Assembly: GCA_022496205.1 (NCBI GenBank)
Contig: WTXD01000377.1
Location: 1 to 10,870, forward strand
Length of the DNA stretch: 10,870 nt
Reading direction: 5' to 3'
Source of the DNA: Gloeopeniophorella convolvens
Lineage: Eukaryota; Basidiomycota; Agaricomycetes; Russulales
The position numbers and the translations under genes are program-made. The notes below the pieces were generated by a model. It did not search any database, was not told the DNA's origin, and was given only the letters and a program-made list of their open reading frames with translations. Positions 1 to 10,870 of the stretch are shown piece by piece. The first letter of the stretch is position 1. Each line of letters opens with the position of its first letter.

Positions 1-354
1 AGGATATCGCGATTTTGCTGGTCGTGAGGCCGAGGCACGTCCGCCACCTTCCTGGCTGAGAGTCTTTATTGAATTTTGGACAGCCTGGCACTTATGACGC
101 GCTCTCACATATGCTCTTCCAGCCGCTGCCGACTGCTGGCTCAAGCGGGGGTCCTATTGTCGACGAAAACACGGGCGCCGTGATTGGCGTCATGCTTGGT
201 ACACGTATGGACAGCTCTGTCGAGGGTGTGCGGGGTTGGGGCGTACCAGCTGAAACCATTTTCGAGGTGCGTAAGGCAAGCCGGTTTGTATCCCATGATA
301 TGAACGGAGATTTCGCAGATGTTCAGTCTCCCAGGATTGAAGCTCAAATCGTGA
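1..354 (+). CDS. Trypsin-like serine protease, C-terminal part (5' end outside window)
   Basis: This is the end of a PA-clan (chymotrypsin-fold) peptidase. The catalytic serine motif GSSGGPIV is encoded at 138-161; by the GxSGGP pattern the nucleophile is the second Ser (144-146). The family-like stretch GVMLGTRMD..VEGVRGWGVP follows. The last coding exon joins cleanly: exon 84-266, intron 267-318 (gtgcgt...cgcag, 52 nt), exon 319-354, giving the ending IFEMFSLPGLKLKS and a TGA stop at 352-354. Upstream, bases 2-34 read GYRDFAGREAE in the frame that fits if a GC-AG intron (gcacgt...gacag) occupies 35-83; this first join is less certain. The catalytic His and Asp would lie before the window. 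The gene points away from the copper module and has no evident functional link to it. Family assignment is by recognition of motifs; the substrate is unknown. Confidence 0.8.
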
Positions 355-2639
355 AATTCAAGCCCCTTGTCTCATTGCTTGTAGAGGTTTTCCTACTACT
401 TAGTCTAGAGCACAATGTCAAATATCAAGTATGACCGTAGTGCACACTCATGAACTCCGTCCTTCAAATAGCTCACGCAATACCGATTGCAGGGACGTGG
501 TACCGTCGGAGGCCTGAAACAATGCCATGTCCCTGCCCGAGACGGGCTGCCAGAAATTCGTCGCAACGTTCGCGACAACAGAGTGCTGATTCGCTAATGA
601 CTTGATGGTGTGACGGAACGCGAGAGAAAGTCCGCAGTCGCCAGCGCGACTCGCGATTACGGAACTGAATGGTCGGACGATGTCAAAAGCCTAACAGAGG
701 CAAAGGCAGTTCCCGGGGTCCCCGTGACGCATGGGCCAATGGCAGAATTTCGGACCGCTAAATTGACTCGCTCTCATGGATAAAAGCCCCACTGAACGCC
801 CGCGCGGCAACTTCTCTCCGGTGCCCTTTTTTCCTTGTCCTCTCACTCGCCTGCCCCTCCCTTTGGCCTCCGCTTCACCACAAGTCGAACGGAGGCATCT
901 GTCTGTCTGCTCAAGCACCTCCGTATCGCAGTATCGCAGGGGGGAGGGGGCCTCCGTAAGACATGCTCTCTCGTGTACGGGCACCTCTCTGCTTAGGCAA
1001 TCCCCTTTCATCGTCTTCGCTTCAGATCACCCCCCCCCCCCCTCCTCCTCTCCCCAATGTGTACGGCTCTTCGTGGTGTTATGCACTCTATTGCCGTCTT
1101 AGCTGTCTACCTCCCAACCGGATACAAGATTGCCGATGGGTGAAATCATGTGCTAACGACCCATCAGGTTGCTAATCGACCTCATCGCCCTACACGACAC
1201 ACCTTCACCCACGCTGTCCCCTCCAATCATATCTCTCATCTCCCTTCCTTCATGCGACCCACTTACCCTCCGTTCCCACGAAGATGCCCGATCACCGTGG
1301 TTGCTGTCAAATCTCGGTGCGATCGGCTGTCGGCCATATGCCAGCGCGCCATGTGCGACGTGGGCGGACTCACCTGTCTCGGTGATGCCGGCAGTTTCGT
1401 GTCCTCAGGATTGCGTGATGGCTCGGGGCTCGTAGCCCTTACTCGGGGGCTATGTGATGCATTCTATGCGCCGCGCTGGTTTGGGCGCGCTTGCGCCCCC
1501 CTGGTCCTCGGAAGCCACGTGAAGAGTTGCAAGCGCAATTCGCTGTTGGCTGGACTTACTTCCCCAGCTCCGGCTCGCTTCCCTGGCGTGTTCCATTTCA
1601 ATTTCAGGCATGCCGGTTGTTTTCGCTGCAGCCCCAAAGGCAAGGACCTTGTTCTAGCTGTCCCCTTGCCGTTCTGCCGAGGTGTTGTATCTATCTTTTA
1701 CATGAGGCCTCTTTGGGCCAATTGGTCGGCGGTTGCAATCTGAAGCGGCTCTTTGAAGCTATCGACGGATACCCTTCACTCCGCCTCGCGTGTGGCTGAA
1801 CTGGAGTGGCTCCTCGTCTCGGATCTCACGCTCCGCACATCCCACGACTTCATTCATGGGGCGCCGTTTTACGGCACTAGCATCCCTTTACGAGTTGGTG
1901 GGATGTGGCAGTTGAACCGCTGATTCAGAGGTGTGGGCGTGTAATGGGTCTGGAAATTTGGCGCAAATTCCGTGCTACGATCATTATGGGAACTGTCTTT
2001 ACGTTCATGATTGAAATGGAAATCCCATGTGGTGGTCGCCTTCGCAGTTCGGGCCTGTGGAGACCGTCGCAATTGAATATTCAAAGTGAGCGGTGACCAT
2101 TCAGGCCTGGCAGGGATGGGCCACGTCTTCCGGTGGACAGGCACTGGGTGGTTTGGCGCAAGTCCACCCAAGCCACAGAACAGGGCACCGACGTCCACGT
2201 TCAATGCGCGCTGCTGATGAATGCCGAAGCGTCTCGGAGAATTGGTGCCAACAAACTAGCGTTGCTGGGAGTGGCGTTGATGTATTCAAAGATTGTGCCT
2301 CTTTCCGTACGGCGCATGCATGTGTACGAGCCTGTCACCCCAGCTAGTGATATTGCGAACCCAATCATGGTCCAGTACTATCCACACAGGGGTGTAGACC
2401 TCCGCGAGCGCATTCTACATGGGATGCCTCATCGACGGCTGGCGCTGAGCGGCCATTTCCGCTTAATTCGATTTTGTACTGGTACCATGCAACAGGAAAG
2501 GGCCTTCTCACTAAGCTTGGTGGATAAATGGCGTAGACAAAAAAGCGTGGTAATAGGTATCTGGCACAGAACACAGGGCACAGAAGTAGCAATAACTAAG
2601 CGGGTCGCAAAGGCCAGATCAGTGGCAGCCACTAGTAGC
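355..2639. other. Intergenic stretch, no supportable gene
   Basis: About 2.3 kb lie between the protease stop and the 3' end of the first BIM1-like gene. No open frame here carries a recognisable domain or a convincing intron pattern. There is a pyrimidine-rich zone on the plus strand at roughly 825-1250, including a C13 run at 1030-1042 and a CT-rich leader just before an ATG at 1252. That ATG opens a 163-codon frame (1252-1743) that is Cys-rich but resembles nothing I know. The last 80 or so bases (about 2554-2639) are the 3' flank of the minus-strand BIM1-like gene and keep weak similarity to the 3' flank of its duplicate (about 6643-6756). Confidence 0.6.
1030..1042. repeat. C13 homopolymer in a CT-rich tract
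   Basis: Thirteen consecutive C residues are followed by TCCTCCTCTCCCC. The other strand is therefore a G13 run that could form G-quadruplex-like structure. A second, similar run (C14) is at 4059-4072. Such runs are mutable and error-prone in sequencing, so the exact length should be treated cautiously. Confidence 0.85.
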
Positions 2640-3476
2640 TCAGAGTGCAAATGCGGACGCGACGGCGAAGCCGAGCGCGCCGAGGATGCCTGTCGCAGCG
2701 AGCCTACCGCTCGCCGCGCCGTTGCCGCTCTGCGAGGGCTGCGAGCCTGAGTTGGTCGGTGACGGCGCGCCACTCGAGCTCGAGCTCGAGCTCGTGGTGC
2801 CGTTCGAGCACGAGATGTTCGACGGAATCTGGAAGCTGCTCGACAGCGTCAGGTCGGCGCACTGCAGACACGCAAGAGCCGAGTCAGCCGTCTGGACTGT
2901 AGAAGACGCGGTAGGAAGGTACCTGGTACAAGGCACCGTCGCCACCGTTGAACAAGAGCTGGATCGTGACGTTCGCGCCGTCCTTGACGCTGCTGATGCC
3001 GGTGTTGCTCAAGTCGAGTGGGATACAGAACTCGCCTTCGCCGGTGGCGGTCGCGAAGTTTCGTGCGAGCTGGTTCTGGCCGGATGGCGTCGAGAAGTTG
3101 TCGAACGAAGTAGGATCCTGGACCGTCGAGATCAGGACGGCAACTGGAGTACAGAGTCAGCGTCTTGGTAGTCTGCTGAACGAGCGGGCGGCAGGGGCCG
3201 ACGTACGGTTCCAGTTAGTGTGCTCGCTCGTGAGCGTGACGAAGCCCCCGCTCAGAGGGAACTCGCTCCGATTGCTGACAGCATGCACGTAGTCGTCTGC
3301 CGTGATGTGCAGCGTAAGCGATGTGCAGCGCAGGTTAAATGCCATTTTGTCTTACCGCAGAAGTTGGGTTCGCTGTCCTCGACGAAAGGCCCACGCGGCG
3401 CTGGGTACCCGAGTTGGAAGTGCGCGCTGACGGACGCAACTACGCTGGCGAGCAAAACAGAGGTAGCGAAGCGCAT
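2640..3476 (-). CDS. Copper acquisition factor BIM1-like (X325) GPI-anchored protein, copy 1
   Basis: Four exons: 3476-3356, 3296-3207, 3143-2923, 2861-2640, with introns of 59, 63 and 61 nt, all GT-AG; the product is 217 aa. Residues 1-18 form a signal peptide ending VSA, so the mature protein starts with His19 ([11 protein letters not shown]). This N-terminal His is the copper-binding hallmark of the X325/BIM1 family. His66 (in EHTNW) and Asp85 (in SFDNF) are candidate further ligands. Cys40, 110, 145 and 162 could form two disulfides. N-glycosylation sequons occur at NRS49, NVT128, NIS159 and NGT164. A Ser-rich linker leads to a hydrophobic tail ([20 protein letters not shown]), consistent with a GPI anchor. 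Cryptococcus BIM1/Cbi1 binds extracellular copper and aids Ctr1 uptake; the Ctr gene 870 bp upstream on the same strand fits that role. The fold is LPMO-like, but the family is not known for polysaccharide cleavage. The product is paralogous to the gene at 6757-7547. Confidence 0.93.
2773..2794. repeat. Hexanucleotide GAGCTC repeat encoding a poly-Ser linker
   Basis: About three and a half copies of the self-complementary hexamer GAGCTC/CGAGCT lie inside exon 4 of BIM1-like copy 1. Read on the minus strand they encode the run of serines before the GPI tail. The duplicate gene lacks this repeat; its last exon is 33 bp (11 codons) shorter. The repeat is a likely slippage-driven linker expansion. 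Confidence 0.8.
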
Positions 3477-3620
3477 GGTTGGACTCGTCGGGATCGTAAG
3501 ACGTTGGTTCGTTGGTTCGTCGCTGCTCTTCCCGGAAAGGCGGGGCAAACAGCTTTTATCTGAGCGGCGGCGCACGTGCCTGGGACGGCAAGATGGTGAA
3601 AAAGTTTTTTCACGGGGGCG
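3477..3620 (-). promoter_or_regulatory. Promoter of BIM1-like copy 1 with 18-bp palindrome and TATA-like box
   Basis: Reading toward the gene on the minus strand, the palindrome GTGAAAAAACTTTTTCAC lies at 3596-3613, its near edge 120 bp from the ATG. A TATA-like GATAAAAGCT is at 3551-3560, about 75 bp from the ATG, and a CACGTG E-box core lies between them at 3573-3578. The 5' leader contains two tandem copies of an 8-mer (plus strand GTTGGTTC, 3503-3518). The palindrome and TATA spacing are reproduced at the duplicate gene. The factor that binds is unknown. Confidence 0.6.
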
Positions 3621-4346
3621 GACCATGCCCGTCTCTAGTGCTGCAAATATCGTTCCCACCGCCTCCTAATCGGGCTCAGCCGGATAGCATAAAATTCGAG
3701 ACCATCGTCCCCTTCGTTGCTTCCGCACTAGAAACTGTGCACAGGAGTGCTGTAGCGACACTGGCCGTAATATGTGCCCTATGCCCGGGATCTTCGCCGG
3801 GGAGGACCACAACGGTTGCGCAGAGGTGGAAATATGGCACGCTGTGACCGCGGAGGTGCGCAAGACACGGGGTGCATTTCGGTGACCTGAGTGGGACGCA
3901 GACTCGGCACAACAATTGCCTGGCATCTCGGGCGGAACCCCATACCGGAAGCACATATCGCCGTCTCCGTATTCAGCTATTTACCAGGGCAGCGCCGAGG
4001 ATGCAGGTTCCTGGGGAATTTTCGTTGTGCTGCCTATCGTGTCACCGACCACACCTTGCCCCCCCCCCCCCCTCGTGTGCGCCACCTCGCGTGGGCGACT
4101 TCCCGTATATCATAGAGGGTGTCTCTGGCTATCTTCTATTGGCGTTGGGGACGTACCTCCGCTCTCGTTTCCCACTCCACGTGAATGCCCTCCAATATCT
4201 TACTACCGTGTCCGCAACTGTACTAGACAGTCACTCAGCGGTGTCAGACAAGCCTCAATGAATGCTGCGGGCTCGCCTCGAGTAGGTGGAGGTGCAGAAG
4301 ATAGCATTGATACATCGATTCGATGAAACGGTTTATATACACTACA
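3621..4346. other. Intergenic between BIM1-like copy 1 and Ctr, with C14 run
   Basis: No gene was recognised here. The part nearer BIM1 (to about 3900) is probably distal promoter and keeps scattered similarity with the matching region of unit 2: GTCCCCTT near 3707 and 7743, and GGAGGACCA near 3801 and 7780. A run of 14 C residues lies at 4059-4072. The rest is the 3' flank of the Ctr gene. Open frames here are short, have no recognisable domain and overlap one another. Confidence 0.6.
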
Positions 4347-4986
4347 TCAAAGGGAGGCACCAGCAAAGCGTCCAAACAAGAATTCGCCAATGCCCAACCC
4401 CGCAATAATGGAGATGACATACGCTGCCTGAAATGTCCTGAGAAGCAGGTCGTCAATGAATGAAGGGGGAACGAGTGAAAGGACAGCTGACATCACAGCC
4501 AACATGAGAGCGTATCCCAGTAATGCCTGCAGGGAATACAAGGCACCTCGCGATACGTCGTAAGAGAAGCTGAAGGGTGGGATCGTGCGCTGCCTTCGAG
4601 CACTCTTAAGCTGTTCGATGGACCTTAACTCTTCGACCTGGTGGATATCCTTCGATTCTCCTGATGCATTGAGGGGGGAGCCCTCGTCTTCCGAAGTATG
4701 GGCAGCGCTCATAGCGAGCATGCTGAGATAAAGTCTCAGCGAAGGCAGCGGAGAAGGTGGATTGTCCACACCTCTTCCTCCAGCGAGCGTTCAGCGTGCT
4801 ACGAGTGGCAAAGAGAAACCTTTCCAGGATCGCCAGCACCAGTAGAGCGATGCTAGCCCCAGCGATGGCCCCGTGAGAAGACGGATGCCATGACTTGAAC
4901 AGCAGGTTGTCGCCTCCTGTAAAGTGGAGGTATGGTATCATTGTGACTATCACCGAGCCGGAGGAGTTGGCGCTATCCATGTCCAT
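4347..4986 (-). CDS. Ctr family copper transporter (intact copy)
   Basis: Three exons: 4986-4772, 4722-4492, 4437-4347, with GT-AG introns of 49 and 54 nt; the product is 178 aa. Ctr proteins are homotrimeric channels for Cu(I) in the plasma or vacuolar membrane. The first ATG after an in-frame leader gives MDMDS..., with Met1, Met3 and Met16 before the family stretch YLHFTGGDNLLFKSW. TM1 is about residues 38-60 (HGAIAGASIALLVLAILERF). A cytosolic loop of about 65 residues follows. TM2, about 129-149, ends in MLAVM, the Ctr MxxxM copper-filter motif (Met145, Met149). TM3, about 151-171, contains GLGIG, the trimer-packing GxxxG motif (Gly162, Gly166). Intron 2 splits the Met149 codon, and the join restores the family sequence AVMTFQAAY. 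The gene lies upstream of BIM1-like copy 1 on the same strand with its own promoter, so the two are probably co-regulated rather than co-transcribed. The N-terminus is Met-poor, so plasma-membrane or vacuolar location cannot be decided. Confidence 0.94.
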
Positions 4987-5125
4987 GTCTATGTTGAGCC
5001 GACCAAGGTGCGACGGCGGGCGGCCTGAGCTTGGTATAATTCGTGAGTGATGGTGGGCTGAGAGCGACCCATATAACGGGACTGGCTGACGGCAAATGCC
5101 GGGACAACATGTGCAAACAACAAGC
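4987..5125 (-). promoter_or_regulatory. Promoter of Ctr gene with conserved block and TATA-like box
   Basis: On the minus strand, TTGTTTGCACATGTTGTC (5120-5103) lies 117 bp or more upstream of the ATG. It is conserved at 17 of 18 positions in front of the Ctr remnant of unit 2 (8924-8907). It contains TTTGCACA, one mismatch from the TTTGCTCA copper-response element of yeast Mac1, and a second TTTGC follows nearby. A TATA-like GTTATAT is at 5071-5077, about 85 bp from the ATG. The link to copper control is inference. Confidence 0.5.
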
Positions 5126-5361
5126 ACGCACCATCGTGGGAAACAATGACTTGACGGCTCTGACTTCCGCCGTGAGGAACAATACGAGAATTGCAGAAGT
5201 GTCAAACATCATAGCTAAGAAAGATAAACGCGGAAGGCTAAGCGAGGCGGCGGGGGACTGTCCTCTATCCAAAGCGCAGAAGTTAGAGCAGAATATGCCA
5301 TGATGCCGAGAAGACAGCAAAGAGCTGAGAGATTGGCACTGCACGAACAGAATGTGGGGAT

Positions 5362-5387
5362 AAGCTTCGGAGAACTACGCTCGCACT
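5362..5387. repeat. Dispersed 26-bp repeat, copy a
   Basis: This sequence begins AAGCTTCGGAGAACTACGCT and ends CGCACT. It recurs imperfectly 156 bp away at 5518-5544 and in unit 2 at 9166-9190. The unit 2 copy is explained by the tandem duplication; the local copy b is an additional direct repeat. It lies about 380 bp upstream of the Ctr start, with no recognised function. Confidence 0.7.
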
Positions 5388-5517
5388 GAACCCCACAAAC
5401 AGTCTGCAGCTCTAAGAAAGTTGGGTTCGCCTCGAGTAAGCCAGGTACCAGGCCGCCAGAGGAAGAGAACGGTAGATTGACGATGTGTATGCAAGAAGGG
5501 CCAACGACATCTAGGAC

Positions 5518-5544
5518 AAGCTTGTTGAGAACTACGCTCCCACT
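5518..5544. repeat. Dispersed 26-bp repeat, copy b
   Basis: This is a second, direct, slightly diverged copy of the 5362-5387 sequence (AAGCTTGTTGAGAACTACGC then TCCCACT). The shared core is GAGAACTACGCTC. No counterpart of this second copy was seen in unit 2. Confidence 0.6.
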
Positions 5545-6756
5545 TGTCCCGACGCGCTGAGGACCCAGTGTATGTCGGGTGGATACGACTGAAAACCAGG
5601 GGGGGCTGCGGACCGACCAAGACTAGACCATTGCTGGAATAGCGGCTCGGGAATGGTTTGAGGCGACACAACCCAAATGGTGGGGTATGCAGGAGAGTGG
5701 CCGCAGAATCGAGGACAGCGGAGAAGACAATGGGGGAGGAAAGGAGAGCAGGGAGATGATCTTGGCGGGCCTGTGCAAGCTCGCAGGGCGTGAGGCAATT
5801 ATCCGACCAATCGCAGGAATGCCTCGTATAAGGGTGGACCCCGGGCACTAAAGCGTGAGAGTCGCCCCGCCCTGAATGACGCCGACTCTTCGGAAGAGCC
5901 TCGGTTCGGCACCTTAGGCCTGCTCTTGACTCTTGTCTCGAGCCAGCACTCGAGATTTATGTAAGTCTCTACATATATCATTCAGCCACAGAGTCCTCAT
6001 GCAACTCAGAAATCCATATTGGCGTCAGATTCCGAAGCCGTGTCTGGTAGCTCCTTAGCCTGGTGTGCGGATAATACATACATCTAACTGCCTCCTCGCC
6101 ATCAGGCCGGTCGGATGGTCGAGAGCGCTACAAACGCATCCTCGAATTATGTCTAGCTGTTATCACTCTGCCGACAGCGGCGGTCTTCCATAGGCAATCC
6201 TGTTGTACATGGGCCTTCTAAGCCCTATCAAGGTTAACTCACTCAGACTATTTCCACTGTCTTTTGCCGCGGGCTCTAGGCCTCTGTCCAGAGGCGTGGT
6301 TTTATATCGTCCACATAGGCACGTGGATTAGGTTGACAACCTACTGTCACGTTACGGCCTGGCGCGATGTCGGGCAATTTACAAGTCTTTTCTGTTTTCG
6401 TCCCGTAGCGCAAGATGCATCTGAATGCCGCGAATGGCACGACATTGGAGGCGGGTTGACAAGCCCAACAAGACACGAAACCAGGAACGACACGTAACAG
6501 TAAGAAGGACCGCGAGGTCAAATGTAAGAAGCCCACGCCGCCCCGGCAACTCGGGATTCTGGCTTGTGATACAGGTGTATGCACTGTGCGTATGATAGTG
6601 AACACGGCTGATTCGGCCCCGCTATCCGGGCGTGTCACAAACAAGTATCTGCACGAGCAAAGTACACAGAACGAACAACAAACAAACGTGGACGCTGAGT
6701 AGGCCCCTCGCAAAGCAACCTCTAGGTCCATACAACCCCTCCCATGTGCCGTCGTA
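5545..6756. other. Intergenic between the two duplication units, no gene seen
   Basis: Beyond the conserved 19-mer at 5799-5817, about 830 bp (5818 to about 6640) have no match I can see elsewhere in the window and no convincing gene. The final 110 bases or so are the 3' flank of BIM1-like copy 2. A short inverted repeat, GCCTCTG-TC-CAGAGGC, is at 6280-6295. Open frames here lack recognisable domains. Confidence 0.55.
5799..5817. promoter_or_regulatory. Conserved CCAAT-containing 19-mer, unit 1
   Basis: TTATCCGACCAATCGCAGG here matches 18 of 19 bases at 9371-9389 in unit 2. It contains a CCAAT box on the plus strand and is the last clear similarity at the distal edge of the duplicated unit. 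The copy at 9371 lies about 185 bp upstream of the plus-strand RBM26/27-like start, where it could act as that gene's CCAAT box. The unit 1 copy has no plus-strand gene after it. Confidence 0.5.
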
Positions 6757-7547
6757 TCAGAGCGCGTAGGCGAATGCGACGACGAATCCGAGCGCGCTGA
6801 GGATACCAGGCATGGCAAGGCTCCTCGCGCTGTTCGTCGACTGCGCGTTTGTGGGGGATGGCGCGGCGGTCGATGTGGTGGTAACGTTCGCGCATGAGAC
6901 GTTCGACGAGATCGTGGCTTTGGATGACAACGTCAAGTCCGCGCACTGTGCAAGCAGACGGGTAAGCCGTCGTCCCCAGCGGAAGTACCAGTATAATTAT
7001 CACCTGATAGAGACTGCCGTCGCCACCGTTATACACGAGCTGGATCGTGACGTTGGCACCGTCCTTGGCCCCACTGACGCCGGTGTTGCTCAGGTCGAGC
7101 GGGATGCAGAACACGCCTGTGCCGGTGGTGCTGGCGAAGTTGCGCGCGAGCTGCTCTTGGCCGAAGGATGTCGAGAAGTTGTCGAACGAGGTCGGATCCT
7201 GGACGGTCGAAATCAAGACAGCCACTGGGACACGGAGTCAGAGGCTGACCCTAGGCCGGCCAAGCAGTGTATCCACTCACAGTTCCAGTTAGGGTGCCCG
7301 CTGGTGAGAGTGACGAATCCGCCACTGAGAGGAAATTCGCTTCGGTTGCTTACAGCACGCACGTAGTCGTCTGCCACGGATTGTGAGCAACGCGGAGGGA
7401 GCAGACCAAGTTGGATGCCTCACCGCAGAAGTGGGGCTCGTTTGCAGCGACGAAGACGCCACGCGGCGCGGGGTACTGGAGGTGGAAGTGCGCGTTGGCT
7501 GTAGCAACGACGCTGGCCAGAAGAGCAGCGAAAGTAGCGAAACGCAT
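6757..7547 (-). CDS. Copper acquisition factor BIM1-like (X325) GPI-anchored protein, copy 2
   Basis: Four exons: 7547-7424, 7370-7281, 7224-7004, 6945-6757, with GT-AG introns of 53, 56 and 58 nt; the product is 207 aa. The start ATG opens a signal peptide ending ANA, so the mature protein starts with His20 ([11 protein letters not shown]), the copper-binding N-terminal His. Exons 2 and 3 have the same lengths (90 and 221 nt) and intron phases as copy 1, and 88 of 104 residues encoded there are identical. Candidate copper ligands His67 (GHPNW) and Asp86 (SFDNF) and four cysteines (41, 111, 146, 163) are kept. The sequons are NRS, NVT, NVS and NVT. The tail [16 protein letters not shown] suits a GPI anchor, but the Ser-rich linker is 11 residues shorter than in copy 1. 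No stop, frameshift or splice-site damage is visible, so it is probably functional even though its partner Ctr copy is broken. Confidence 0.93.
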
Positions 7548-7690
7548 GAGTAGCAAAGCTGGATTGACAGGTGCCAGCGCTGGTCTCGTACCGCTCTGCA
7601 TGGCTTGAAGTAACTCAGCATCTATATTTTAGACGGTTCCTACCCTTGGAGGGAAGGAGGGCAGTGAAAAAACTTTTTCACGAGGGTAGA
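7548..7690 (-). promoter_or_regulatory. Promoter of BIM1-like copy 2 with 18-bp palindrome and TATA-like box
   Basis: On the minus strand the palindrome GTGAAAAAGTTTTTTCAC lies at 7681-7664, its near edge 117 bp from the ATG. It is the exact reverse complement of the copy 1 element as read toward its gene. A TATA-like box, TCTAAAATATAGA, is at 7621-7633, about 74 bp from the ATG. DNA between these elements and the start codon shows little similarity to copy 1, so the element and its spacing appear selectively kept. Confidence 0.6.
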
Positions 7691-8465
7691 GTGTCCCCCG
7701 ATTCAAGGAGGATCGTACCAAGATAACGCCAAGAAAGCTTATGTCCCCTTTGCGCCGTGCGCCTTGCCCCTACGGGGACAGGAGGACCATGCTCGTTCGA
7801 GCCCTGACGCGGAGGCGTTCCCTGCGCGATGCCATCACACCGGATCGCCGCTAAGAAGGATTGTTGATGTCGATATATGGTAGGCAAGGGTCAGGAGAGG
7901 TCACCGCCGAGTGAGGTGACTGGAAGCGACCCTGTTGCGTATTTGACACGAGTACATCGCCGATTCGGCACAGTAGTAGTGACCATCTGGCGAGTCGGAA
8001 TCAGCGGGGCCTTATCAGAGAGCGTGCCACCAAGAGCTCATCGAAGGTGCTACCAAGAACGCTCGTGTCCCCCTGACGCCATCATCGGATATGCGTCTAC
8101 CAATTGCGGTCGATATCCCCAAACGCGAAGGAACCCGAAGCCCTACCGACGACGTGCAAGTTAACGGTAGATCTCAACGACCGCTTTGGTTAGGCTTGCT
8201 CTCGTAGGCGGCCAAACTACATTCTATGTTGACAACTGTCAAGGTTCGTCGCCCGCTCCGCGTAGCGTTTCCAGCATATGCAACGCCCGCTATGATGTTC
8301 ATTGTACACGAAGGATTCTAGATAACAGCCGTCGCATCGTGCAGGACCGCTCTGACACTGATCACCAAGAATAGCCGATGTAGCCTCGGTAAGCGTGGGT
8401 GGTTCGCTGAGGCGAGCGTAAGACCTGGAAACAATACTCACCGATAATCGGAAATGATTAAGTTA
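7691..8465. other. Intergenic between BIM1-like copy 2 and Ctr remnant
   Basis: No gene was recognised. The interval corresponds to 3621-4346 of unit 1 and keeps only short matches (see that entry). The C14 run of unit 1 is absent. Plus-strand open frames here have no recognisable domain. Confidence 0.55.
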
Positions 8466-8768
8466 CTATAGGTCCATCCTGGCGAAGCGCCCAGATAAAC
8501 CCTCACCGATACCTATCACTATGATGGTGTACGCTGCTTGGAACGCCCTGGTGATGGCCGGGTCCATGATGAGGGGCCGAGGAAGCAAGTAAAGCAATTG
8601 ATTGATATGACAGCTAACATGAGGGTGTAGCCCGCAATGGCACCGTGGGGCGAGGAATACCAGAACCTGAACGGTAGGTTCCCGACGAAGTGAAGGTACG
8701 GTATAATTGTGTATCATCGTCATCATATCCGTCGCGGACGGGTTCGTGCTGGCTATATTTATGTCCAC
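8466..8768 (-). pseudogene. Decayed Ctr copper transporter copy
   Basis: Three islands of Ctr homology lie in order but in broken frames. The initiation region MDINIASTNPSATDMMTMI parallels the intact N-terminus. A roughly 10-bp insertion near 8702-8711 shifts the frame before PYLHFVGNLPFRFWYSSPHG. The sequence then jumps from HGAIAG directly to YTLMLAV. Compared with the intact gene this removes residues about 44-141 and intron 1 (about 340 bp), that is most of TM1, the loop and half of TM2. The second Met of MxxxM is Ile. The intron 2 donor GT is AT. The last exon reads AFQAAYTIIVIGIGEG..GRFARMDL, four residues short in TM3, with TAG at 8468-8466. A trimeric channel could not form from this. 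It is the unit 2 counterpart of the gene at 4347-4986. Confidence 0.88.
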
Positions 8769-8906
8769 ACAGGATATGTGAGCGTGGGGTGGGCGGTGAA
8801 TATAGTCCGGTGTGAAGTGCGAGTGATGGTCAGTAGCCCCCGAATCGGAGCTGCCAGTGATTCACATGAGCCTCGAGAGCGTGCCGCGGACTCCAGCAAC
8901 CTCTGA

Positions 8907-8924
8907 GACAACATGTCCAAACAA
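8907..8924 (-). promoter_or_regulatory. Conserved Ctr upstream block in front of the remnant
   Basis: On the plus strand GACAACATGTCCAAACAA differs by one base from 5103-5120. That one difference changes TTTGCACA to TTTGGACA on the minus strand, breaking the TTTGC core of the copper-response-like motif in front of the dead gene. Confidence 0.5.
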
Positions 8925-9165
8925 GCGACATCGATCCTGAGACCTGACCAGTGGGCACCAACCGCAAGAGGGAACCAGTATGGGTGTTTTCGAGAACGAG
9001 GTCGTGGGGATATCGTAGGAAGGACAGTTAGAAGGATCGTTCCGGAACCCAGTTAAGAGTGACGCCCAGAGCGGCCAGGGGGGTGTCAGGGACAGACGCC
9101 ATCCAGGGCAGCATCGAGTGAGGAATCAACTCGACAATGGAGCGCATGGGCAGGCTGCAGGGATG

Positions 9166-9190
9166 AGCTTCGGAGGACTACGCTCGCACT
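9166..9190. repeat. Dispersed 26-bp repeat, unit 2 copy
   Basis: AGCTTCGGAGGACTACGCTC followed by GCACT matches 5362-5387 with one internal change. It marks the same position upstream of Ctr in both duplication units. Confidence 0.65.
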
Positions 9191-9370
9191 CAAGCCCACA
9201 GACCGCGACGTGCTCAAGCCCGGTTTCGTATCATGAGACCACGAGGCACGCTAGCTCGGATGTGTATGGCACGATGTGGGTAGGCCAGAGAGAGATGCAC
9301 TGGGATGTGTATAGAGCAGATGGCGACAGAGAGGTTTATGTTGGCAGGGTGTCGATGGATCGATGAGGGG

Positions 9371-9389
9371 TTATCTGACCAATCGCAGG
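9371..9389. promoter_or_regulatory. Conserved CCAAT-containing 19-mer, unit 2
   Basis: TTATCTGACCAATCGCAGG is the counterpart of 5799-5817 and the last visible similarity at the distal duplication boundary. The CCAAT box is on the plus strand, about 185 bp before the RBM26/27-like start codon. Confidence 0.5.
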
Positions 9390-9571
9390 CGGAAAACGTG
9401 ATGTGACGCGAGGTTGGTGGATTGTCACATGTCACGAGGGAGAAGCGGACCGAGGGTGTGACTGGGATGGCCAGTGCCAAATCCTCCGGTCAACACGACC
9501 ATCACATCGCAGGGCCTCTCCACCTCTCCTCTCGTCCGCCTCGACCCACCACAGCCCACAATCTTGGGCTC

Positions 9572-10870
9572 ATGACTATGCTCTTTGACCCCTCTACATC
9601 AGAACACCTCAAGCCATGGCTCATAAAAACTCTCGAACCAATGTCCGTCCTGTCCCTTTCCCTTACCCTCGCATTTGCTCACCTTGCCCATCTTCCAGAT
9701 GCGATGCCGACCCTCAGCACTTGCTGATTATGTCCTCGCTTTGCTGAAGCACAATGCGCCGGAATCCGACCTGCGCAAGGAGCTGGCCAGTCAACTCGAC
9801 GAGTTTCTTGAAAAAGGTGTGTCGTCTTCTGTTCCATTCCTACGAGCTCTCTAACCTCCGTGGCCTTCACAGAGGTCCCCCCTTTCATCGACGCCCTCTT
9901 CACCTCCCTCCGCACAAAATCATACCTCCCGTACTCCTCTCCTCCCCCTCCACCTGCCTCATCATTACCTTCAGATCATGGCATTCCTATCCCACTTGAC
10001 GCTATCGCTGCATCGTCTTCCTCGAGCCCTTCAGACCGGGGCAAGAAGCGTCCATCCGAGTATGACGACGATCTCCGACCTCCGAAAGGTCCCCGGACGA
10101 GTCAGGATGGCCCCTTCTCACGTCATGGCCCGCACGGCCCACATGGGCGCGGAAATGGGAACTGGGTCCAGGGACGTGGCGGCTTTGGGGGTGTTGCAGA
10201 TGGTATGGGCCCGCGCATGAATATGAACGGCCGCGGGCCACAGGGGCAATACCACCCACCGGACCAAAGAAGAGGAATCTGCCGCGATTATTTCAGTGAG
10301 TTCAAGCTTTCGTTTCTCAAACACGCGTACTGACCCACCCAGATAATGGATACTGTGCTCGTGGAGCATTCTGCAAGTACAGCCATGGCGAAGATGCTCT
10401 CGTGCCGGGTGCCTTCCCAATGAATCCCCAGCAAATGCAGGGAAACATGTTCATGCCCATGTTCCCTCCTGGCATGCCGTTTGGAATGGGCCATCCTGCT
10501 GCTTACGACCCGCATGAGGCTCGCATTGATATACGGCCGGGAGTCCCTTCTGGCCCCATGGGCCGGCCGCAACGAGCGTCTATGCTTCCAAGGGCCAACG
10601 GAGACGGACATTCCATGCACCCTTCGACATTTGGAGAGCTCCCAGTAATTCAAGACTTGACGCCTCCGATGCCCAGCGACGAAAACGCGTTGCAACCGAA
10701 CGGCGCCTCGGGAGCAGCCGACTCAACCGCCCGACCCAATGGCGCGAGCGTTCCCCAGCCCGGCTCCTTCGGGTATGGACGTAGACATCCAGATGGCAGG
10801 CCCGTCGTCCCATCCGAATCGTCCACATCGTGGCTCAGCCAATCCCGCGGCCGCGGTGGTCGCCGGGCTT
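9572..10870 (+). CDS. RBM26/27-like PWI and CCCH zinc-finger RNA-binding protein, N-terminal part
   Basis: Exons: 9572-9642, 9699-9816, 9873-10295 and 10343 to the window end; introns of 56, 56 and 47 nt are GT-AG. The start is the ATG at 9572 (MTMLFDPSTSEHLKPWL); the ATG at 9578 is an alternative. The N-terminal PWI-like helical domain runs through EPICDADP, SALADYVLALLKHNAP and LEKEVPPFIDALFTSL. A Pro/Ser- and Gly-rich linker follows. A CCCH finger, C-x8-C-x5-C-x3-H (CRDYFNNGYCARGAFCKYSH), is split by intron 3. Then comes a Met/Pro-rich segment. The RRM expected in this family would lie beyond the window. RBM26/27 and fission yeast Rmn1 act in nuclear RNA decay. Oddity: after GCCGAC (9706-9711) the frame must slip by one base within a CCC run to continue into SALADYV, and similar slips near 10753 and 10844 would give a more family-like sequence. 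The gene may be intact with assembly errors, or frameshifted. Confidence 0.85.

Follow-up and report, generated by a model that had tools for sequence, protein, structure and literature searches.

A rare palindromic promoter element, a putative operator, at two BIM1-like genes and a Ctr-linked ferric reductase gene of Gloeopeniophorella convolvens

The stretch of DNA analyzed here (the window) is the whole of contig C309, 10,870 bases long, from the genome assembly of Gloeopeniophorella convolvens (order Russulales; 36.68 Mb in 404 contigs). It carries two BIM1-type genes, and upstream of each of them, on the same strand, lies one Ctr or Ctr-like copper transporter gene (Table 1), an arrangement that we read as a BIM1-Ctr unit duplicated in tandem. 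The predicted BIM1-B protein is identical to its G. convolvens database entry. The second transporter copy, Ctr-B, gave no Pfam match in either of the two frames scanned. Exons of other genes are present at both ends of the window (60-434 and 10300-10869), where only weak matches below the cut-off were obtained, one to a trypsin-like domain (E 0.01) and one to a CCCH zinc finger.

Window positions 485-10870 match a region of contig C334 at 99.74% identity (13 mismatches, 7 gap openings). From this identity, we take the contig to be, most likely, another haplotype of the C334 locus or a duplicate of it left unmerged. About 6.0 kb of extra sequence in C334 (C334:656160-662199) falls opposite window positions 485-493, and the matches on its two sides overlap by 9 bases, a pattern that a mobile-element insertion with target-site duplication could leave.

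Table 1 Features of the window and of the related loci on other contigs.
Feature	Position	Strand	Remarks
BIM1-A gene (PF20238)	2640..3476	-	Database protein P0002 (BC834DRAFT_818334)
TATA-like GATAAAA	3554..3560	-	35 bp downstream of palindrome A; by eye only
Palindrome A, GTGAAAAAGTTTTTTCAC	3596..3613	.	BIM1-A promoter; confirmed, with genome-wide pattern search
Ctr-A copper transporter gene (PF04145)	4347..4986	-	Palindrome absent within 600 bp upstream
Ctr-promoter element copy 1, GAACTACGCTCGCACT	5372..5387	.	386 bp from Ctr-A ATG
Ctr-promoter element copy 2, GAACTACGCTCCCACT	5529..5544	.	543 bp from Ctr-A ATG
BIM1-B gene (PF20238)	6757..7547	-	Database protein P0001 (BC834DRAFT_966981)
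TATA-like TAAAATATA	7623..7631	-	32 bp downstream of palindrome B; by eye only
Palindrome B, GTGAAAAAACTTTTTCAC	7664..7681	.	BIM1-B promoter; confirmed, with genome-wide pattern search
Ctr-B, Ctr-like copy, shortened or decayed	8466..8726	-	Ctr-like by eye
Ctr-promoter element at Ctr-B, GGACTACGCTCGCACT	9175..9190	.	Upstream, single copy
Ctr-C element pair	C334:690117-690132 and 690292-690307		Second copy with one mismatch
Third BIM1 gene, BIM1-C	C334:691879-692115 (L039)		22 kb away, adjoins Ctr-C; database protein P0046
Tandem Ctr and ferric-reductase genes	L033:2483-3191 and 4356-6477		Same strand

A sequence-only reading of the window had pointed to an 18-bp near-palindrome in both BIM1 promoters as a possible operator for copper-acquisition genes. 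The 18-mer pattern, GTGAAAAANNTTTTTCAC, is indeed present at both sites (Table 1), and the two 18-mers are exact reverse complements of each other. Allowing up to three mismatches, the window holds these two matches where 0.02 would be expected, and 0 of 200 shuffles gave two. The distances to the start codons had been put at 120 and 117 bp; 119 and 116 bases intervene before the ATG of BIM1-A and BIM1-B, respectively, and the TATA-like boxes follow the palindromes within the 31-36 bp that had been proposed. The surrounding DNA has diverged, again as described: in an ungapped comparison anchored on the site, 70 of 195 flanking bases are identical (36%; 32/100 upstream and 38/95 downstream), against 16 of 18 within the palindrome, where only the two central bases differ.

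The same reading had placed the two copies in opposite orientation. They are exact reverse complements, but this amounts to the difference at the two central bases and is no separate fact, since the 3′ flanks CACGGGGG and CACGAGGG (plus strand) align in direct register over 23 nt (87%) and no inversion is needed. Two substitutions at the center are thus a more likely difference between A and B than an inversion.

We then searched the 36.7 Mb genome for the pattern; the counts that follow are possibly lower bounds. The exact form occurs at four places, namely the two sites and their C334 counterparts, and the reversed-pattern control at none. With spacers of 0-14 between the arms, one additional exact place was found, C350:212201-212217 (GTGAAAAACTTTTTCAC), where a third-order Markov model built on 111 kb of fetched sequence predicts ~0.005 chance occurrences per spacing and ~0.08 over spacers 0-14. 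The shorter form TGAAAAA-N(0-6)-TTTTTCA returned the same five places and no other (control 0; ~0.5 expected). Arms of GTGAAAA and TTTTCAC with spacers 0-10 gave one extra place, C190:205373 (spacer 10; control 1; ~0.9 expected), and the everted arm order with spacers 0-30 has no place in the genome. As a class, palindromes with 8-bp arms and a spacer of 0-2 are not rare, with 13 in 101,870 fetched bases, a count that includes the three sites described here as well as some low-complexity palindromes that overlap.

Mismatched versions of the site were also considered as markers of copper genes and were rejected, as the loci examined show no copper-gene link. At up to two mismatches, the spacer-2 pattern has 20 places in the 36.7 Mb genome (4 exact, 16 with two mismatches and none with one; reversed control 2), and ten of the 16 belong to a single repeat-like sequence, GTGAAAAATAT[G/A]TTTAAC. 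Around the other six, which represent five loci, no copper family was found among ten chosen large ORFs: seven matched GDA1/CD39, epimerase, NAP, glycine-cleavage P (two), peroxidase, and CSL zinc-ribbon families, and three, including the ORF directly after the near-site on contig C112, were without a family. The spacer-1 pattern at up to two mismatches gave three places versus nine in the reversed control. Separately, two copies of GTGAAGTACTTTTTCAC, perhaps a repeat, lie in inverted orientation at C123:6202-6218 and 8855-8871, separated by 2.6 kb.

The additional exact place on contig C350 is a 17-mer (4201-4217 of L033, the segment C350:208001-216000) that precedes the ATG of a reductase gene by 138 bp. 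The exons of this gene match Ferric_reduct (PF01794), FAD_binding_8 (PF08022), and NAD_binding_6 (PF08030), and their joined translation matches a 594-aa G. convolvens protein annotated as 'iron reductase', with the same start methionine as database protein P0121. On the same strand, a Ctr gene ends ~1 kb upstream of the 17-mer. A random site would fall within 2 kb of one of the five Ctr loci with a probability of ~5e-4, a category that was picked after seeing the hit. Read in one orientation, the three sites are one word, GTGAAAAAG-T(5 or 6)-CAC, with one T different; the reductase site has a spacer of 1 instead of 2 and no TATA-like box at the matching spacing. Comparing 600 bp of each promoter, no other shared 18-mer with at least 14 matches was found between the reductase and BIM1-A, and a single 14/18 match, at unrelated positions, between the reductase and BIM1-B. 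Because the promoters share so little beyond the site, we take the reductase site to be an independent occurrence, and as the reductase gene is not a BIM1 paralog, it provides independent support. The inverted repeat thus recurs in promoters of one pathway, including that of an unrelated gene. Nor is the pattern equally frequent at random sites, since its three independent places in 36.7 Mb each lie upstream of a copper-acquisition-type gene.

Several other explanations can be weighed against these data. The site could have arisen once by accident in the ancestor of the BIM1 pair and been carried along by duplication, with the reductase site a coincidence; A and B are tandem paralogs, and palindromes with such arms are not rare as a class. 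We consider this improbable, as the site was kept amid near-random flank identity (16 or more matches out of 18 would have a probability of ~5e-6 given the ungapped flank identity, 0.0007 if the flanks were 50% identical, and 0.008 if they were 60% identical), and the sole further copy found in 36.7 Mb precedes a Ctr-linked reductase. Even less probable is a nucleosome-excluding poly(dA:dT) tract or the footprint of a mobile element: A5-6/T5-6 tracts do stand out amid DNA of 57% GC (111 kb fetched), but the GTG/CAC ends are exact at all three sites, the reductase promoter shares next to nothing with the BIM1 promoters beyond the site (600 bp each), and the TGAAAAA-N(0-6)-TTTTTCA search yielded no further copies. 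An action at the RNA level, through a hairpin in the 5′ leader, seems just as far-fetched. Every site folds into a stem of 6-7 bp; however, the fold z-scores are weak (-0.68, -1.18, and -0.51), palindromes A and B lie upstream of their TATA-like boxes, and the window has no Rfam match at the gathering threshold.

The palindrome is not a general mark of copper genes. That it is not seen near the Ctr gene, as first proposed, holds for the 600 bp upstream of Ctr-A and Ctr-B but not for C350, where the site follows another Ctr gene. It is likewise absent from the 600 bp upstream of Ctr-C, of the C350 Ctr, and of a third BIM1 gene, BIM1-C. In the predicted BIM1-C protein, Q replaces the N-terminal H that follows the signal peptide, and D replaces the H of the S[EG]HxxW segment. 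Judging from conservation and from the literature on BIM1 and LPMO proteins, the replaced histidines would be copper-brace ligands, and it is possible that the copper function of BIM1-C was lost or changed. The presence of the palindrome and that of the apparent copper-binding residues go together in three of three BIM1 genes.

Ferric-chelate reductases serve iron as well as copper. As the third gene encodes such an enzyme and is annotated as an 'iron reductase', iron rather than copper is possible, and the site could be an iron-responsive or general metal/redox-responsive operator. We regard this as unlikely, as the two other targets are BIM1-type genes and the reductase adjoins a Ctr gene. 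In addition, six other ferric-reductase loci are without the site, although a share of one in seven also counts against a copper operator. At least three homologs among the 120 listed of 369, from Grifola, Athelia, and Volvariella, are predicted as single proteins that combine a reductase with a Ctr domain; of these, the Grifola sequence was inspected. They could be artifacts of gene-model merging, yet even so hint that Ctr and reductase genes adjoin in these fungi too, in what would be a conserved copper-uptake neighborhood.

The clustered Ctr genes have a second very rare element of their own, GRACTACGCTCSCACT. Its seven exact places in the genome are all upstream of Ctr genes: Ctr-A (two copies, on both contigs), Ctr-B (both contigs), and Ctr-C. 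The paired copies are 157 bp apart at Ctr-A and 175 bp apart at Ctr-C, where the second copy is one of five one-mismatch places. With up to one mismatch, GRACTACGCTCSCACT has 12 places (8 + 4) against 7 (4 + 3) in the reversed control, so the remaining one-mismatch places may be due to chance; as the clustered Ctr genes are paralogs, the sharing of the element may be by descent. A CCAAT-containing block, TTATCTGACCAATCGCAGG, was also noticed at 9371-9389, with a copy at 5799-5817, and the decayed-looking Ctr-B still retains both its upstream element and this block. The promoter of the C350 Ctr contains AGAACTACGC (reverse strand, ~-197) and TTTGCTCG at -83.

The identification of the palindrome as a promoter element of copper-acquisition-type genes is supported. 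The original proposal of a copper-acquisition operator is partly supported: the element was found at three independent places, but it is not general, with four Ctr promoters and BIM1-C lacking it. The element is rare, keeps its position before the start codon, recurs at a non-paralogous gene, is preserved amid diverged flanks, and is absent from BIM1-C; the basis is three independent sites, two of them related by tandem duplication, in one genome. In our preferred reading, the palindrome is probably a transcription-factor operator, likely of dimeric type, that serves the part of copper uptake concerned with capture and reduction. It would have the form GTGAAAAA-N(1-2)-TTTTTCAC, placed 116-138 bp upstream of start codons, and its predicted targets would be genes for cell-surface copper capture (the two BIM1-like genes) and for a ferric-chelate/copper reductase adjoining a Ctr gene. 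A sequence-specific regulator, most simply a homodimer, would contact the GTG/CAC ends and the A/T tracts, and its binding would couple these genes to the supply of copper, or of copper and iron. The protein binding, the dimer, the copper response, and the activation under starvation are what we infer. More tentatively, and with the balance of probability against it, a copper regulon of Agaricomycetes (or Russulales) might have two branches, in which Ctr genes would be controlled through the paired, GCTC-containing GRACTACGCTCSCACT, and BIM1 and Ctr-linked Fre genes through the palindrome by a second, undescribed dimeric regulator that is not of the copper-fist type.

Mushrooms and wood-decay fungi need copper for their laccases and lytic polysaccharide monooxygenases, and to our knowledge little of how these fungi regulate copper uptake has been mapped beyond Cryptococcus. 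A very rare putative operator at BIM1 genes and a Ctr-linked reductase could serve as a concrete bait for its regulator, and the genes that it precedes would be the predicted members of the copper-capture arm.

The RRPE-like A/T element of yeast ribosome-biogenesis genes also holds the words TGAAAAA and TTTTTCA. It differs from the palindrome with regard to the spacer and the GTG/CAC ends, and none of the three independent places described here is at a ribosome-biogenesis gene. The long palindrome strings were not found among the matches listed from the literature searched, from which most subscription journals are absent, so the element is not shown to be unpublished; in matches for two of its 9-mers with fungal or copper terms, the 9-mers never occurred together with 'copper' among the matches listed.

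The yeast-type copper-response element (CuRE) of Mac1/Cuf1 is TTTGCTCR, and the Ace1-type element is HTHNNGCTGD. As had been noted from the sequence, the palindrome does not fit the known copper elements: it matches neither TTTGCTCR nor the Cryptococcus CuRE, whose published consensus is WAAKGSCKCR (PMC7961099), and the Ace1-type GCTG core is missing from it. Within 600 bp upstream, TTTGC[TG]C[AG] has no match at BIM1-A, BIM1-B, or the reductase, and WAAKGSCKCR has none in eight promoters. The Ace1-type element matches once among the eight, at -209 of BIM1-A. The partial copper-element word TTTGCGC occurs at -202 of BIM1-B, and TTTGCTCG within the first exon of BIM1-A (window 3456).

Copper-fist proteins (PF00649) with the KGRP segment are encoded at two loci of the genome, C334:873947 and C13:318835, and the palindrome could be a Cuf1/Mac1-type site in an unfamiliar form, with the T-tract kept and the GCTC core replaced. 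Its T-rich tracts resemble the TTT of TTTGCTC, and TTTGCGC is present in the BIM1-B promoter. According to one study, the low-copper regulon of Cryptococcus, CBI1/BIM1 included, is driven by Cuf1, with CBI1/BIM1 and CTR1 among the genes that it regulates most upon copper depletion (PMC9258870). We nevertheless doubt this explanation, since the palindrome has no GC core and the three promoters that carry it match neither copper-element consensus within 600 bp, whereas the C350 Ctr promoter, without the palindrome, has TTTGCTCG. The Mac1/Cuf1 CuRE is found in promoters of low-copper genes such as Ctr, BIM1/Cbi1, and Fre, and the putative operator resembles it in being a promoter element at genes of this type. 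The palindrome differs in being a single near-perfect inverted repeat of 17-18 bp without a GCTC or GCTG core, and none of the Ctr promoters examined contained it.

The closest parallel for the C350 locus comes from Fusarium, where four fre genes and three ctr genes depend on Mac1, the fre genes are direct Mac1 targets, and fre9 and fre12 cluster with ctr genes (PMC11563359). The ctr3-fre9 pair described there is divergent, with predicted Mac1 sites in its promoter, whereas the C350 genes are in tandem on one strand and the palindrome precedes the reductase only. In both fungi, a Ctr gene adjoins a metalloreductase gene.
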